From NCBI GenBank assembly GCA_902793465.1, contig CADBDT010000005.1, positions 1 to 64,000 of the forward strand: a stretch of 64,000 nucleotides of DNA, in the 5' to 3' direction. Origin of the DNA: an uncultured Coriobacteriaceae bacterium (GTDB lineage Bacteria > Actinomycetota > Coriobacteriia > Coriobacteriales > Atopobiaceae). How positions within the stretch are numbered: the first letter of the stretch is position 1; each line of letters opens with the position of its first letter. Positions 13,167-40,819 of the stretch are shown here, one piece after another. The notes under the pieces were generated by a model. That model was not told the DNA's origin, did no database searches, and worked only from the letters and a program-made list of their open reading frames with translations. The translations under genes were made by a program, and so were the position numbers.

Positions 13167-13367
13167 TTACCGGCCGATGCCGTAGACGCCACATTTGTCG
13201 GCAGGGCAGCCCCATTCGTGCTCCGAGCACCAACCGCCAGAGATGCCTTCGAGTTGCTCGTCGGGAATCTCCATGCCCTCCTCCTTGGCGAGCTCGAACA
13301 GCTCCTCGGTTGAGCCACACGCACGCGCCTTCTCCCGCAGCTCGGGAGACAAGCCGTTGATGTCCAT
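13167..13367 (-). CDS. Nif11-like leader peptide, orphan RiPP precursor
   Basis: A very strong ribosome-binding site (GGAAGGAGAGGG) precedes the ATG. The 66-residue product has a Nif11-type leader: LSPELREKARAC near residues 6-17, ELFELAKEEG at 22-31, and a double-glycine site ISGG at 42-45. The predicted core is W46-R66, with Cys at 47, 54 and 59 and two Trp. Peptides of this design are normally cut after GG by a C39-type protease and modified by a radical SAM or LanM-type enzyme. No such enzyme is adjacent; the nearest maturase is 22 kb away at 35238-36803, and it might act in trans. Confidence 0.85.
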   Translation of the reverse strand: MDINGLSPELREKARACGSTEELFELAKEEGMEIPDEQLEGISGGWCSEHEWGCPADKCGVYGIGR

Positions 13368-35237: not shown

Positions 35238-36803
35238 CTACTGTGACTCCGGATATTCCTTCGTGCGCACAAGCTCCGTCTGCCGAAGAAGCTCTACGGC
35301 CCTTTTGCCAGAGGTCGTAGTCATAAGCTCATTGCGTTCCTCTGGTGTCATCCGAGAGAGGGGTCCATACAGAGATACAGAAAGCTCGTCGTTACCGTCC
35401 TTCTCCCAGCGCCTGCCCATTACGCGAGGGGCAACATAGGCAAATATCTCTGGGAACTCTCCGCAGTGTTCGTGGAAGAGGGAGCCGGATTCCCTTCTTG
35501 CGTCCGAAGCGCAGCCACCGCGGCACAAGAACACGTACGGGCAAACCATGCACGCCTCCATCCTGGTCGATGTTCGCAGGCGCCACCTAGCCTTGGCGAA
35601 GCCGTACGCGAATCTCTTGGACTCCTCGTCCACGTACCCGACGGAATCTACGTCCATACCCACCAAGTCCCAACAGGCGTGCACCTTGCCCTCGGGATCG
35701 ACGACCAAAGCACCCGACTCTGCACCGCAGTAGGTGTTGTGGCAGATGGGATAGCGCTCCTTAGTCGCCATCTCCTCCAGATTGCCCATGGCCATACTGT
35801 ACTGGCTCTGGAGATCCAGCGCCTCGATGGGTGGGATGCCCGTGGCAACAATCGCGTCCATCACCTCCTGCTCGGTTACGCGGGTAGGGGAGCTCGGATC
35901 CTCCGAGACTGCCTTGAAGTAGTACGAGAAGCTGCCCCGCCTCTCCTCAGTGTCGCTGCCCTCGTATTTGGAATCCGTAAGTCCACGTGCGGTGAGGTCG
36001 GCAATCAAGTCTGGGATGCCGTTTATATTGTCGCGGTTGACATTTACACGCAGCTGCACGTTTACGCCCCGGTCCAGGGCAAGGCGGACGTTGCTCATAA
36101 TACGGTCGTAGGTGGGCACGCCATCCCGGTGACGCCGTCGGCAGTCGTTCTGCTCGCCAACGCCATCCACTGTGACTTGCAGGCGGCTGAACTCAAACTC
36201 CTCCAGCAAGTCCAGGTATCCCTCCAGGTCGTAGCCGTTTGTTACCGCCGTTATCTTAAGGCCCATCTGGTGCGCGTGCGCGCAGATGTTGCGAACGACG
36301 TCCTCGTTGCCCTCCATGAGTGGCTCCCCACCATAGAGCATGCACGCGTTTATGCGGTACCCCTCGTCTTGCATCTTTTGGAGGCCCCCGAACGTGGCCT
36401 CCACCATTTCTGGCCTCATCCTGCGGCTCAGCCATTCCTGCCCGCGTGCGAGCCGATGGCTCTCAAAGCAGTAGGGGCAACGAAAGTTGCAGTCGTAGGT
36501 CGGCAGGATTGCAAGGGTCGTTTCGCTCCTTGCCAGAGTCCTGTCGTAGACGTTGCCGAGCAGGCTAACGTCATCTTGCTCCTCCTGAGGGGTCTTGCGC
36601 GTAATATGCCCTCGTGCGGCAAGTCTCTCCCTCGCGGGGACGGGCAGCTCGTCCAGGTTGTTGCCAAGCAGCCGTGTGGCCGTGCTCTCGTCCACCACGT
36701 CGACAGACCCGTACAGTCCGTTGACGAGGAGCCTTTTTCCCTCAATCGGTTGCTCGTCCGAACCGATGAGCGGCAGGATGATCTCGTACGTGCTTACCCT
36801 CAT
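35238..36803 (-). CDS. radical SAM/SPASM peptide maturase
   Basis: ATG 36803 follows GAGGAGG; the longer open frame is not used. 521 residues. Residues 1-90 form a small N-terminal domain of the kind that often binds the precursor leader. The radical SAM cluster motif is C105-x3-C109-x2-C112 (CNFRCPYC). YGGEPLMEG and VTVDG are SAM/core motifs. A SPASM domain follows (about 370-470) with CHNTYCGAESG, HACW, CMVCPYVFLCRGGC and HC, enough Cys for two auxiliary clusters. Such enzymes install thioether, C-C or related crosslinks in RiPP precursors. It is the last gene of a leftward operon whose first gene encodes a Cys-rich Nif11 precursor, so a ranthipeptide- or sactipeptide-like product is expected. 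Confidence 0.9.
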   Translation of the reverse strand: MRVSTYEIILPLIGSDEQPIEGKRLLVNGLYGSVDVVDESTATRLLGNNLDELPVPARERLAARGHITRKTPQEEQDDVSLLGNVYDRTLARSETTLAILPTYDCNFRCPYCFESHRLARGQEWLSRRMRPEMVEATFGGLQKMQDEGYRINACMLYGGEPLMEGNEDVVRNICAHAHQMGLKITAVTNGYDLEGYLDLLEEFEFSRLQVTVDGVGEQNDCRRRHRDGVPTYDRIMSNVRLALDRGVNVQLRVNVNRDNINGIPDLIADLTARGLTDSKYEGSDTEERRGSFSYYFKAVSEDPSSPTRVTEQEVMDAIVATGIPPIEALDLQSQYSMAMGNLEEMATKERYPICHNTYCGAESGALVVDPEGKVHACWDLVGMDVDSVGYVDEESKRFAYGFAKARWRLRTSTRMEACMVCPYVFLCRGGCASDARRESGSLFHEHCGEFPEIFAYVAPRVMGRRWEKDGNDELSVSLYGPLSRMTPEERNELMTTTSGKRAVELLRQTELVRTKEYPESQ

Positions 36804-36855
36804 GGAGCCTCCTCGTAGGCGCGCCCTTGCATCTGTGCGGCGATAGGGTCTAAAA

Positions 36856-37785
36856 CTAGTCTTTTGGATAGAGCCGGTGCAGGGGATATGGGGTCTGCTG
36901 CAGGTAGGCCTTTGCCTCCGACACCTTACCGTTCTCGAAGCCCAGTTTGTAGTGGCTGATGGTTGTCTGGATAAAGGGGTCGGCATCCGGCGGGATTCGG
37001 ACCCAGCGGTGCAGTGCGTCGCCCTTCTGCGGCAGGCAGAGGCCGGAACGCTCCAAGCGATAGACCATCCTGTCCACGAGCCTAGGGTGTCGCCACCTGG
37101 GCCCGAGCTCGACGCTCGTCTTTTGTCGAATGCCCCGCTCGTCCAAGTCGAGGTTCACGCCCATCCACTCCATGTCCGCGTAAGCGGCGAGCGTGGTGGC
37201 CAGCGCCTTTGTGTCGCCGGGCCAGCAGATGGTCTGCATGGTCTCGGGGACTTGCTCCCAGTCCAAGAACATGAGCACGATGCGCAGGCTGTTTTCTTCC
37301 CCAGGTCGTGCCATAGCGCCAATCTGCTTAACGCACACACCCTGAGGCAACCGCTCTATCACGTCCAGGAGTCCTTGCCTTAGGCGACTCGTCCTGCCCA
37401 CGCCTGCAACAAATTCGAGGGCCTGGTCCCACCACGCAACGGGATACTCCTCGTCGGAGGCCGCCCAGGTGTTGAGGAACAGGCAAGGAGAGACTTCCCC
37501 TGGCTCGCAAAATGCCTGGTAGTCCATCTCAAACCAGATGGCGGACCCAGGAAAGGGGGAGCCGTCGGTTGTGCATAGGATGTAGTCCACGTTGCGCTGC
37601 TGGCTGCCGAGGCGAACCTCCAACCCAGCCCTAGAAGACCGTAGCTCGCCGTACTGTGCCTCCACGTTGTCCAACGCAGCTAGGCACTCCTCGTCTACCA
37701 GCTCGTGGATGGACGAGGAGTGCTTGCGAAGGTGATTAAGGTACTCCTTTGCTGGCAGCCAACGCTCGTAGGCATTGATTATCAA
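36856..37785 (-). CDS. RiPP-locus protein of unknown family
   Basis: The proposed TTG start at 37785 overlaps the precursor stop (ATTGA), a layout for translational coupling; there is no separate ribosome-binding site. The 309-residue product has no membrane helix or known motif. Recognisable segments are QIGAMARPG (about 150-160), GVNLDLDERG (about 206-215) and YKLGFENG...AKAYL near the C-terminus (about 281-296). The same segment order is present in the protein at 25254-26273, also next to a Nif11 gene. It may be a second tailoring enzyme or a leader-binding partner. The strand-rich pattern weakly recalls ABBA prenyltransferases of the cyanobactin type; this is speculation. Confidence 0.7.
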   Translation of the reverse strand: MIINAYERWLPAKEYLNHLRKHSSSIHELVDEECLAALDNVEAQYGELRSSRAGLEVRLGSQQRNVDYILCTTDGSPFPGSAIWFEMDYQAFCEPGEVSPCLFLNTWAASDEEYPVAWWDQALEFVAGVGRTSRLRQGLLDVIERLPQGVCVKQIGAMARPGEENSLRIVLMFLDWEQVPETMQTICWPGDTKALATTLAAYADMEWMGVNLDLDERGIRQKTSVELGPRWRHPRLVDRMVYRLERSGLCLPQKGDALHRWVRIPPDADPFIQTTISHYKLGFENGKVSEAKAYLQQTPYPLHRLYPKD

Positions 37786-38102
37786 TCGCGGGTCCAGTCT
37801 TTTGTCTGACAGGGATTGTCGGCCTCTGTCCGGCATGGGACCTTGTTCCCGCATTCGAACCCTTGGTTGCTCGGGCACTTTACGATGCCGTAGCATTCCC
37901 TGCAGAACCCACCGGCGGCTGAGTCCAGGTCGTCTAAGGTGAGCGGCTTGCTGGAGAGCTCGTCCAAATATGCCTGTGCCTCCTCGGCGGTAAGATCTAT
38001 GTCGTTTTCTTTTGCCAGTGCGAGGAGCTCCTCCACACTCTCGCAGGCCTCTGCCTTTTGGATAAGCTCCGGGGTCAACTCCTTGCCGCTGTAGTCTGCC
38101 AT
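37782..38102 (-). CDS. Nif11-leader RiPP precursor with six-Cys core
   Basis: ATG 38102 follows GAAGGGAGAAC. In the 106-residue peptide, the leader (1-65) is Nif11-like: LTPELIQKAEACESVEELLA, an acidic helix, then SAAGG at 61-65, a double-glycine cleavage site. The core F66-D106 has Cys at 67, 70, 76, 84, 90 and 98 and ends KDWTRD. The spacing (x2, x5, x7, x5, x7) is suited to multiple thioether links. It is the first gene of a three-gene operon with an unknown protein and a SPASM maturase. There is no transporter or protease in the operon; the nearest C39-like protein is at 53987-54517. A TTGACA at 38141-38146 (minus strand) may belong to its promoter. Confidence 0.88.
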   Translation of the reverse strand: MADYSGKELTPELIQKAEACESVEELLALAKENDIDLTAEEAQAYLDELSSKPLTLDDLDSAAGGFCRECYGIVKCPSNQGFECGNKVPCRTEADNPCQTKDWTRD

Positions 38103-38393
38103 AGGACTGTTCTCCCTTCATATGTGGTTGAGTTTTTGGCTGTCAACCTACGTTCCTTCCGCATTGCGCAAAAAACGAAATGCACTACATGGAGCAAGCG
38201 TGGTAAATCTCCCGTCTAAGGTACCATATGCGTGCATGTTCGTGGAGGGCAGTTCGTCTTTGGGCAGCTCGTAGACGTGTGAGGGGCTCTCGATACGGGT
38301 CCGTTTTGTTATCCGGGTGTAGCGCAAATACTATCCGCCTCAGTCGCGAGCCGCGTATAATAACTGCAATATCGTTGCCAGGAGGTGACAAAC

Positions 38394-38873: not shown

Positions 38874-39674
38874 ATGAAGCTCACGATGCTCGGAACCGGA
38901 AACGCGCTTGTTACTGAGTGCTATAACACCTGCTTTGTCCTGGACGATGGGGAAGAGTGCCTTATGGTGGACGGGGGAGGTGGCAGTGGCATCCTGGCCC
39001 AGCTCAAGCACGCAGGCTTTGACTGGATGGACATGCGCCACATTTTTGTTACGCACAAGCACATGGACCACCTGCTCGGCGTCGTGTGGATGGTTCGCAC
39101 GATCTGCCAATTTATGGAGCACGGCGCCTATGAGGGCGAGGCTTGGATCTACTCGCACGCCGAGGTGCTAGACCTCTTGCGCGACATTGCGGGCAAGCTC
39201 CTGCGGGACAAGGATGCGGCTCACATTGACGAGCGACTACACATGGTGGAGGTTAGTGACGGAGAGACCCTCAACGTCATTGGCCACCGGACTACGTTCT
39301 TCGACATCGGCTCTACCAAGGCAAAGCAGTTTGGCCTCTCGATGGAGCTGGACGAGGGCCGTCGCCTCGTGTGCTGCGGAGACGAGCCGCTAAGCGACGC
39401 CGGTCGCCCCTTTGCCAGAGACGCCGAGTGGATGCTCCACGAGGCCTTTTGCCTCTACTCGCAGGCTGACTTGTTTGACCCTTACGAGAAACATCACTCC
39501 ACTGTCAAGGACGCCTGCAAGATTGCGGAGGAGCTTGGCGTAAGAAATTTGCTGCTTTACCACACCGAGGACAAGACCCTCGCTCGGCGTAAGGAGCTCT
39601 ACGCCGCCGAGGGCAAGCCGTACTTCTCGGGAAACCTGTGGATCCCCGACGACCTGGAGTCTGTCGAGCTATAG
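38874..39674 (+). CDS. metallo-beta-lactamase-fold hydrolase (RNase Z-like)
   Basis: 266 residues with the MBL metal-binding motif THKHMDHLLG near residue 60, the further His/Asp ligands (CCGDEPLS, LLYHTEDK) and an N-terminal LGTGNALVTECYN. This is the RNase Z/phosphodiesterase-like branch. It is probably a phosphodiesterase; the substrate is unknown. It shares an operon with the acetyltransferase upstream and is followed by the 73-bp repeat array. Confidence 0.85.
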   Translation: MKLTMLGTGNALVTECYNTCFVLDDGEECLMVDGGGGSGILAQLKHAGFDWMDMRHIFVTHKHMDHLLGVVWMVRTICQFMEHGAYEGEAWIYSHAEVLDLLRDIAGKLLRDKDAAHIDERLHMVEVSDGETLNVIGHRTTFFDIGSTKAKQFGLSMELDEGRRLVCCGDEPLSDAGRPFARDAEWMLHEAFCLYSQADLFDPYEKHHSTVKDACKIAEELGVRNLLLYHTEDKTLARRKELYAAEGKPYFSGNLWIPDDLESVEL

Positions 39675-39692
39675 AGCTTGTTGTCGGCCATT

Positions 39693-40256
39693 GCACGCAA
39701 TGGCGTGCATTTCCGCTTAGCCTGGCCTCCCAAACGCACGTGGGTGCGTGGTGTATTGCCCGACTGCACGCAACGACGTGCGTTTCCGCTGCGCCTGGCC
39801 ACCCAAACGCACGTGGCTGCGTACAGTGCCGCCTGACTGCACGCAACGACGTGCATTTCTTCCGCCGGCGGCTGTCGAAACGCACGTAACTGCGTGTAGT
39901 GCCGCACCACACCACGCAACGACGTGCATCTCGTCCACTGGCGGCTGCCCAAACGCACGTGGGTGCGTGGTGTTGTCAGCTATTACACGCAATGGCGTGT
40001 ATTTCCGCTTAGCCTCGCCACCCAAACGTACGTAGCTGCGTGGTGTATTGCCTGACTACACGCAATGGCGTGCATTTCCTCTGCCGGCGGCTGCCCAAAT
40101 GCACGTAGCAGCGTGGTGTATTACCTGACTGCACGCAAAGACGTGCATTTCCTCTGCCGGCGGCTGCCCAAACGCACGTGGCTGCGCGGTGTTGCCAGCC
40201 ATTGCACGCAACGACGTGCATTTCCTCCACTGGCGGCTGTCGAAACGGCATACCCC
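39693..40256. repeat. tandem array, exact 73-bp period, eight hairpin units
   Basis: Units start at 39693, 39766, 39839, 39912, 39985, 40058, 40131 and 40204 (the last truncated). Each has a word like GCACGCAACGACGTGCATTT and, 39 bases on, its inverted copy like AAACGCACGTGGCTGCGTGG, giving a ~20-bp stem, a ~19-base loop and a ~14-base linker. Units are 75-95 percent alike by eye; loops fall into about three types (TTAGCCTGGCC, GCCGGCGGCTG, CCACTGGCGGCTG) and linkers into two. The period is not a multiple of three, so it is not coding. It fills the gap between convergent genes. Confidence 0.9.
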
Positions 40257-40819
40257 TAGTCGTTATCCCGATCAATCGCCAGATAGCAAGCAGGTATGTG
40301 GTCCGCGAGCCAGGTGGAGTCGTTGCCGCAATAGAATGCGATTCCGTCGCGAGCCGCGCGCGAGGCGTCTATGGTAAGGATAACGGTTTGGCCGCCATGG
40401 CGTGCGCCCACCTGGTGTGCCGTGGGAACGTCGGTAGAAAGGTGTACCTTTTGCCGTCCCATGGGTTGCAGTCCCTCGCGCATTATGGATTCGAGCCGCA
40501 CTTTGGTTGTTCCGTGATAGAGAACGGCGGGCGGCTCGCTGCGGTCATAGGCCTCCCGCACAGGAATGGAGTGCCCGTAGCGCGCCCTTATGCGTCCGTT
40601 CTCCACGGCAAAGCGCTGCTTTGAGCCATGCTCTACCACCTGCATAATGTCGTCTTCATCCAGCATGCGGGGCCATCCACCGCGGCTGTTGAGGGCATCG
40701 ATAAGCGTCTGCAGCTCTACGCTGCCGTCTGATGCCAACGCAATGCCAATGCGCTCCGGTCGATGCCTAAGCGCCTTGGACATCGCCTTGCTCAGGCTCG
40801 TGTAGTTAACATCGACCAT
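40256..40819 (-). CDS. kptA: RNA 2'-phosphotransferase (KptA/Tpt1)
   Basis: ATG 40819 follows GGAGGGATTG. At 187 residues it is the normal length. The N-terminal winged helix has SKAMSKALRHRPE (catalytic Arg/His). The C-terminal ADP-ribosyltransferase-like half has LYHGTTKVRLESIMREGL, VHLSTD and a later Arg. The enzyme removes a 2'-phosphate using NAD+; in bacteria without tRNA introns its natural substrate (perhaps RtcB-independent repair ends or ADP-ribosylated RNA) is unclear. The stop codon touches the edge of the 73-bp array. Confidence 0.92.
   Translation of the reverse strand: MVDVNYTSLSKAMSKALRHRPERIGIALASDGSVELQTLIDALNSRGGWPRMLDEDDIMQVVEHGSKQRFAVENGRIRARYGHSIPVREAYDRSEPPAVLYHGTTKVRLESIMREGLQPMGRQKVHLSTDVPTAHQVGARHGGQTVILTIDASRAARDGIAFYCGNDSTWLADHIPACYLAIDRDND

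Follow-up and report, generated by a model that had tools for sequence, protein, structure and literature searches.

Prenylation alters the way in which peptides interact with membranes. Peptide prenyltransferases guided by a leader are a recent finding, made with lanthipeptides. In Moorena producens, the mpp cluster (MppE/MppM/MppC) yields a Nif11-led lanthipeptide that MppC, an ABBA prenyltransferase, geranylates at Trp82; MppC requires the whole leader, both its structured part and its L(X)4L motif, with Trp336/Phe340 as the leader-contacting residues (PMC12715784). NctPC, a prenyltransferase–cyclase fusion, is likewise a Trp-acting ABBA prenyltransferase, with low similarity to the cyanobactin enzymes (PMC13290415). 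Radical SAM enzymes with a SPASM domain crosslink ribosomally made and modified peptides (RiPPs) by several chemistries; those that group with QhpD and PapB, and not with the known sactionine synthases, form thioethers to non-alpha carbons (PMC11002830).

Here we analyse a three-gene operon within a window of 64,000 nucleotides (the whole stretch of DNA that was analysed). As in the mpp cluster, a Nif11-type precursor with an L(X)4L motif is combined with a crosslinking enzyme and a single candidate target Trp, and the middle protein is predicted to be an ABBA prenyltransferase, as MppC is. The mpp cluster, in contrast, is cyanobacterial and relies on LanM for crosslinking where this operon has a radical SAM/SPASM enzyme, and MppC was compared by its published description. 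The likeness to NctPC would consist of a predicted ABBA enzyme distant from the cyanobactin ones and a Trp of a ribosomal peptide as the candidate target, whereas NctPC is fused to a terpene cyclase and no terpene cyclase is present in this operon. On balance, we lean towards a Cys-rich RiPP that carries both thioether crosslinks, made by the SPASM enzyme, and a prenyl group, added by a leader-dependent transferase of the ABBA type; such a pairing would be new. More tentatively, the locus might stand for a RiPP class in which a SPASM-crosslinked six-Cys core is lipidated by a shortened leader-guided ABBA prenyltransferase, outside cyanobacteria.

Precursor and operon layout

The operon lies on the minus strand, with all frames intact, and encodes a precursor (P0001), a middle protein (P0002) and a SPASM enzyme (P0003):

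38112–38117, minus strand: AGGGAG, ribosome-binding site of the P0001 precursor, read from the sequence
37908–38102, minus strand: Nif11-like leader, P0001 residues 1–65, ending in AGG and carrying L54-TLDD-L59, an L(X)4L motif
37785–37907, minus strand: P0001 core, residues 66–106, FCRECYGIVKCPSNQGFECGNKVPCRTEADNPCQTKDWTRD, with six Cys and a single Trp at 103
36856–37785, minus strand: middle protein P0002, 309 aa, predicted shortened ABBA-type peptide prenyltransferase, with a TTG start and its stop at 36856–36858
36808–36814, minus strand: GAGGAGG, ribosome-binding site of P0003, four bases 5' of the ATG
35238–36803, minus strand: radical SAM/SPASM maturase P0003, 521 aa (PF04055, E 1.2e-19; TIGR04085, 50 bits, cut-off 27)

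The initial annotation described a 106-residue precursor with a double-glycine leader and a six-Cys core, and the gene agrees in each respect. P0001 (37782–38102, minus strand, 106 aa) has a leader closed by AGG at residues 63–65, followed by a core of 41 residues whose Cys stand at 67, 70, 76, 84, 90 and 98 (C-x2-C-x5-C-x7-C-x5-C-x7-C); this 2-5-7-5-7 spacing can be taken as two units of 14 residues. Ten other proteins of the window have a Cys frequency of 2.0%, at which at least six Cys among 41 residues would be expected with P ~1.5e-4. The single Trp (W103) stands three residues from the C-terminal end, and P0001 thereby combines the two precursor features that go with MppC, L(X)4L in the leader and a Trp in the core. 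Its description as a Nif11 precursor holds for the layout, with a structured leader, a double-Gly motif and a variable core, and fails for membership of the NCBIfam family TIGR03798, against which the leader scores 22.6 bits (E 9.2e-5; curated cut-off 32.3); because of this score, 'Nif11-like' is the safe wording. PF07862 likewise stays under its cut-off (18.7 against 23.8 bits).

A homology search with the precursor returned one close relative, a leader in the congener genome G004 that is 73% identical (E 6.5e-24) and is followed by an entirely different core, cut to eight residues. Differences between the two leaders number 10, 10 and 28 over the three codon positions; this concentration at third positions, together with the identity, argues that the P0001 gene is real and that its leader is, by this comparison, conserved at the protein level in one congener. 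GGGAG, resembling a ribosome-binding site, stands 5' of the P0001 ATG. No core related to that of P0001 turned up in the 140 family genomes searched.

The annotated overlap of a 309-residue protein with the precursor also stands, as the P0002 TTG start (37785–37783) shares two bases with the P0001 TGA stop (TTGA). GC3 across the operon is normal and the operon matches the rest of the genome around it in base composition, leaving a foreign origin, considered on the basis of GC, unsupported. Downstream lie a hybrid histidine kinase and two lipoprotein-like ORFs without an assignment, and upstream a GNAT, a beta-lactamase-fold protein and a Tpt1/KptA homolog; none of these neighbours, on either side, seems to be related to RiPPs. 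The operon indeed encodes no transporter or protease, as had been remarked, and this is less odd than first suggested because four C39-peptidase proteins, candidate exporters, are encoded elsewhere in this genome, on other contigs. Taken together, we regard it as near certain that this is a real RiPP locus.

SPASM maturase and crosslink chemistry

P0003 matches its annotation as a radical SAM/SPASM enzyme: its CxxxCxxC motif is CNFRCPYC, its seven-Cys SPASM pattern (C-x12-G-x4-C ... C-x2-C-x5-C-x3-C ... C) is complete, and PF04055 and TIGR04085 exceed their cut-offs, with PF13186 below (14.2 against 21.5). The reading of the whole as a compact RiPP operon is thus upheld, with a maturase outside the curated families. 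P0003 falls below every curated maturase cut-off, the best families being CefB (131 bits, cut-off 600), TIGR04463 (123, cut-off 525) and Clo7bot (104, cut-off 600), followed by geopeptide, FlmE/OhkG and PapB (85, cut-off 340) and, lower, by the QhpD type (59 bits); its best 25 family matches include no known sactionine synthase family. The CefB and TIGR04463 maturases, the closest curated ones, act on Cys-rich substrates, but P0003 is far under their cut-offs and P0001 does not share the spacing of the CefB substrate, with a Cys at every fifth position. PapB-type ranthipeptide synthases are SPASM enzymes that offer a six-thioether precedent, freyrasin, but their cut-off is likewise unreached and their C-x3-D pattern occurs in the P0001 core at the last Cys (C98) only.

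Because SPASM enzymes that group with QhpD and PapB form non-alpha thioethers, a ranthipeptide-type product is our best guess for P0003. A less probable, still considerable alternative is that P0003 forms alpha-carbon thioethers, as in sactipeptides, or carbon–carbon crosslinks. It draws on the chemical breadth of SPASM families (PMC11002830), on the absence of a match above any curated cut-off and on the irregular residues that follow the core Cys and would be the acceptors, and it is countered by the nearest curated families, which are Cys-rich-peptide maturases and PapB/QhpD-type enzymes, and by the six Cys of the core.

No P0002-like protein is encoded next to the closest SPASM enzymes on plasmids of Rhodococcus, Muribaculaceae and Sarcina. 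A second SPASM enzyme of the same genome, 35% identical to P0003, lies ~35 kb away (C5:71284–71988; L003, L026); no Nif11-like ORF was detected beside it, and its relatives in G002 and G004 adjoin a Nif11-like Cys-rich precursor (GGMMWGDVCVGVACKVCRGYKGCKCY).

The middle protein and its family

P0002 had been annotated as a protein of unknown family. This stands in so far as it has no Pfam or NCBIfam match, and searches of PDB sequences with P0002, its profile and its Nostoc relative gave nothing useful, with one weak match to adenylyl-sulfate kinase; its status as an orphan does not stand. A weak tblastn match among plasmids (E 0.01) identified a first relative in Azospirillum sp. B510, and the Azospirillum protein, used as a query, retrieved further plasmid-borne relatives in Pseudanabaena, Nostoc and Acaryochloris, such that all four relatives found sit in RiPP clusters:

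Azospirillum relative: between NHLP precursors and a TfuA/YcaO pair
Pseudanabaena relative: in a Nif11/LanM cluster, its domain fused to a 2OG-Fe(II) oxygenase domain
Nostoc relative: in an NHLP/radical SAM cluster
Acaryochloris relative: in a Nif11/radical SAM C-methyltransferase cluster, split over several frames; this copy may be decayed

With a profile built from three relatives (Azospirillum, Pseudanabaena and Nostoc), from which P0002 was held out, P0002 scored 67.5 bits, with 6.7 bits for the best of 2000 shuffles, and P0002 keeps all 37 invariant alignment columns. By profile and alignment, P0002 is a shortened member of an uncurated, RiPP-associated family of Azospirillum and cyanobacteria. 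It lacks ~45 residues of its relatives between hairpins 1 and 2 and ~16 before hairpin 5, and because of these two missing segments it may have lost activity or may bind the leader differently. In Azospirillum and Pseudanabaena, an uncurated protein of ~600 aa adjoins the P0002 relative (L085 3848–5638 and L093 10691–12484; 43% identical); we considered it as a terpene cyclase and dropped the assignment, as it has no Pfam, NCBIfam or PDB match. No homolog of this partner is encoded in the present genome.

We consider P0002 to be probably an ABBA-type prenyltransferase, its likeness to MppC coming from cluster comparison and not from the sequence of MppC. The Pseudanabaena cluster, with a Nif11 precursor, LanM and a P0002 relative, has the gene set and layout of the mpp cluster, and three cores, those of both Azospirillum precursors and of the Pseudanabaena precursor, end in Trp. 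The alignment and the strand order of an AlphaFold2 single-sequence model, itself too poor for fold claims at pLDDT 39, suggest five beta hairpins between helix pairs, an arrangement that fits an ABBA barrel; in the same alignment and low-confidence model, conserved R, K and K-x-Y fall on successive predicted hairpins, as in ABBA barrels. Foldseek with this model gave no meaningful match, and hhalign against bacterial Trp_DMAT sequences, one row of the five being out of frame, detected nothing. The relatives also conserve W-P-x-x-L (W316, W319, W333) in the segment that P0002 lacks before hairpin 5; this site resembles MppC Trp336/Phe340 by residue number only and serves as a lead.

A less probable but still substantial alternative is that P0002 is instead some other leader-engaging RiPP protein, either a substrate-binding partner or a non-prenyl transferase, in which case the crosslinked, Cys-rich product would bear no prenyl group. 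Such a role would accord with the missing direct link in fold or sequence to a characterised prenyltransferase, with the Nostoc precursors, whose cores are without Trp and so speak against prenylation of Trp, with the fusion of the Pseudanabaena domain to an oxygenase domain and with the reduced length of P0002. Against it weigh the mpp-like architecture of the Pseudanabaena cluster, the three cores with C-terminal Trp in the clusters of P0002 relatives and the hairpin and K-x-Y pattern, with the strand-borne charged residues all retained in P0002.

With P0002 as a prenyltransferase, we infer a route with the following order of steps. The Nif11-like leader would dock the precursor to both P0002 and P0003. 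P0003, via 5'-deoxyadenosyl radical chemistry, would join core Cys to neighbouring residues by thioether bonds, with ranthipeptide-type linkages to non-alpha carbons as the likeliest outcome. P0002, as a leader-dependent ABBA-fold transferase, would move an isoprenoid from a prenyl diphosphate onto the core, with the sole Trp, residue 103, as the most likely acceptor, and a C39-peptidase exporter encoded elsewhere could then cleave after AGG and secrete the product.

The proposal that the mature peptide could be new is borne out in part: no counterpart operon occurs in the sampled relatives, and neither a product for this locus nor a pairing of prenylation with a SPASM enzyme was found in the related genomes or the open literature searched, with an earlier mention elsewhere being possible; on the other side, the predicted peptide combines known chemistries. 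Since P0002 is related to a RiPP-associated family, what is new is probably the combination of Cys thioether crosslinks with prenylation, and not a wholly unknown enzyme. If the prediction is right, leader-guided prenyltransferases also work with radical SAM crosslinking, and in a third phylum. P0002 is the valuable part of the locus in that it ties it to an uncurated RiPP-associated family and, via the cluster comparison, to leader-dependent prenyltransferases; this family, including its fusion to a 2OG-Fe(II) oxygenase, offers a hook for mining lipidated RiPPs.

Distribution and related loci

Beyond its own genome, P0002 has no relative in 140 genomes of the family or 346 of the class; a profile search of 396 genomes of the phylum also found none beyond its own genome, and none were found in viral contigs and phages. 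P0003 has one close relative among the 140 family genomes, a G015 maturase that is missing its middle part, with no precursor or P0002 nearby, and the G004 leader, the one close relative of the P0001 leader, has no maturase nearby. The sampled Actinomycetota genomes thus hold one decayed maturase and one leader-only relic, and no intact counterpart operon. As, among the family genomes, only this one has P0002, and the relatives of P0003 and of the leader are decayed, the operon seems to be a rare survivor; other Nif11-like peptides abound in the genus. A step further, the operon itself might be decaying and yield no product, as the broken G015 maturase, the G004 precursor reduced to a leader and the single intact operon copy could hint; with all three frames intact, good ribosome-binding sites and normal GC3, we hold this to be improbable.

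Nif11-like leaders followed by unrelated cores are numerous in the genus (loci L031–L077), and because some of these cores end in zinc-ribbon-like CPxCG motifs, not every Nif11-like ORF in the genus is a RiPP precursor. The frequency of such CPxCG endings is what could favour reading the P0001 core as an unmodified metal-binding or disulfide-bonded Cys domain in a coincidental neighbourhood, the least probable of the alternatives and a very remote one, given that the motif is absent from the P0001 core, that the gene overlaps P0002 in the same operon as a SPASM enzyme and that P0002 relatives sit in RiPP clusters.

Within the window, a second Nif11-like ORF (13167–13367, minus strand; 66 aa, four Cys) has no obvious maturase adjoining it and is near-identical in G012 (L032 1123–1323). 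For loci L107 (G253 C42) and L113, the short ORFs of a stretch of a class-level genome proved identical to those of a Rhodococcus qingshengii plasmid, which suggests that this assembly is contaminated. Window positions 39606–40320, which lie between the genes for the beta-lactamase-fold protein and the Tpt1/KptA homolog, hold a degenerate repeat in seven overlapping copies, with a period of 73 nt and inverted arms of 47–92 nt, and similar-looking repeats occur at L003 3100–3700 (C5, about 72.9–73.5 kb).
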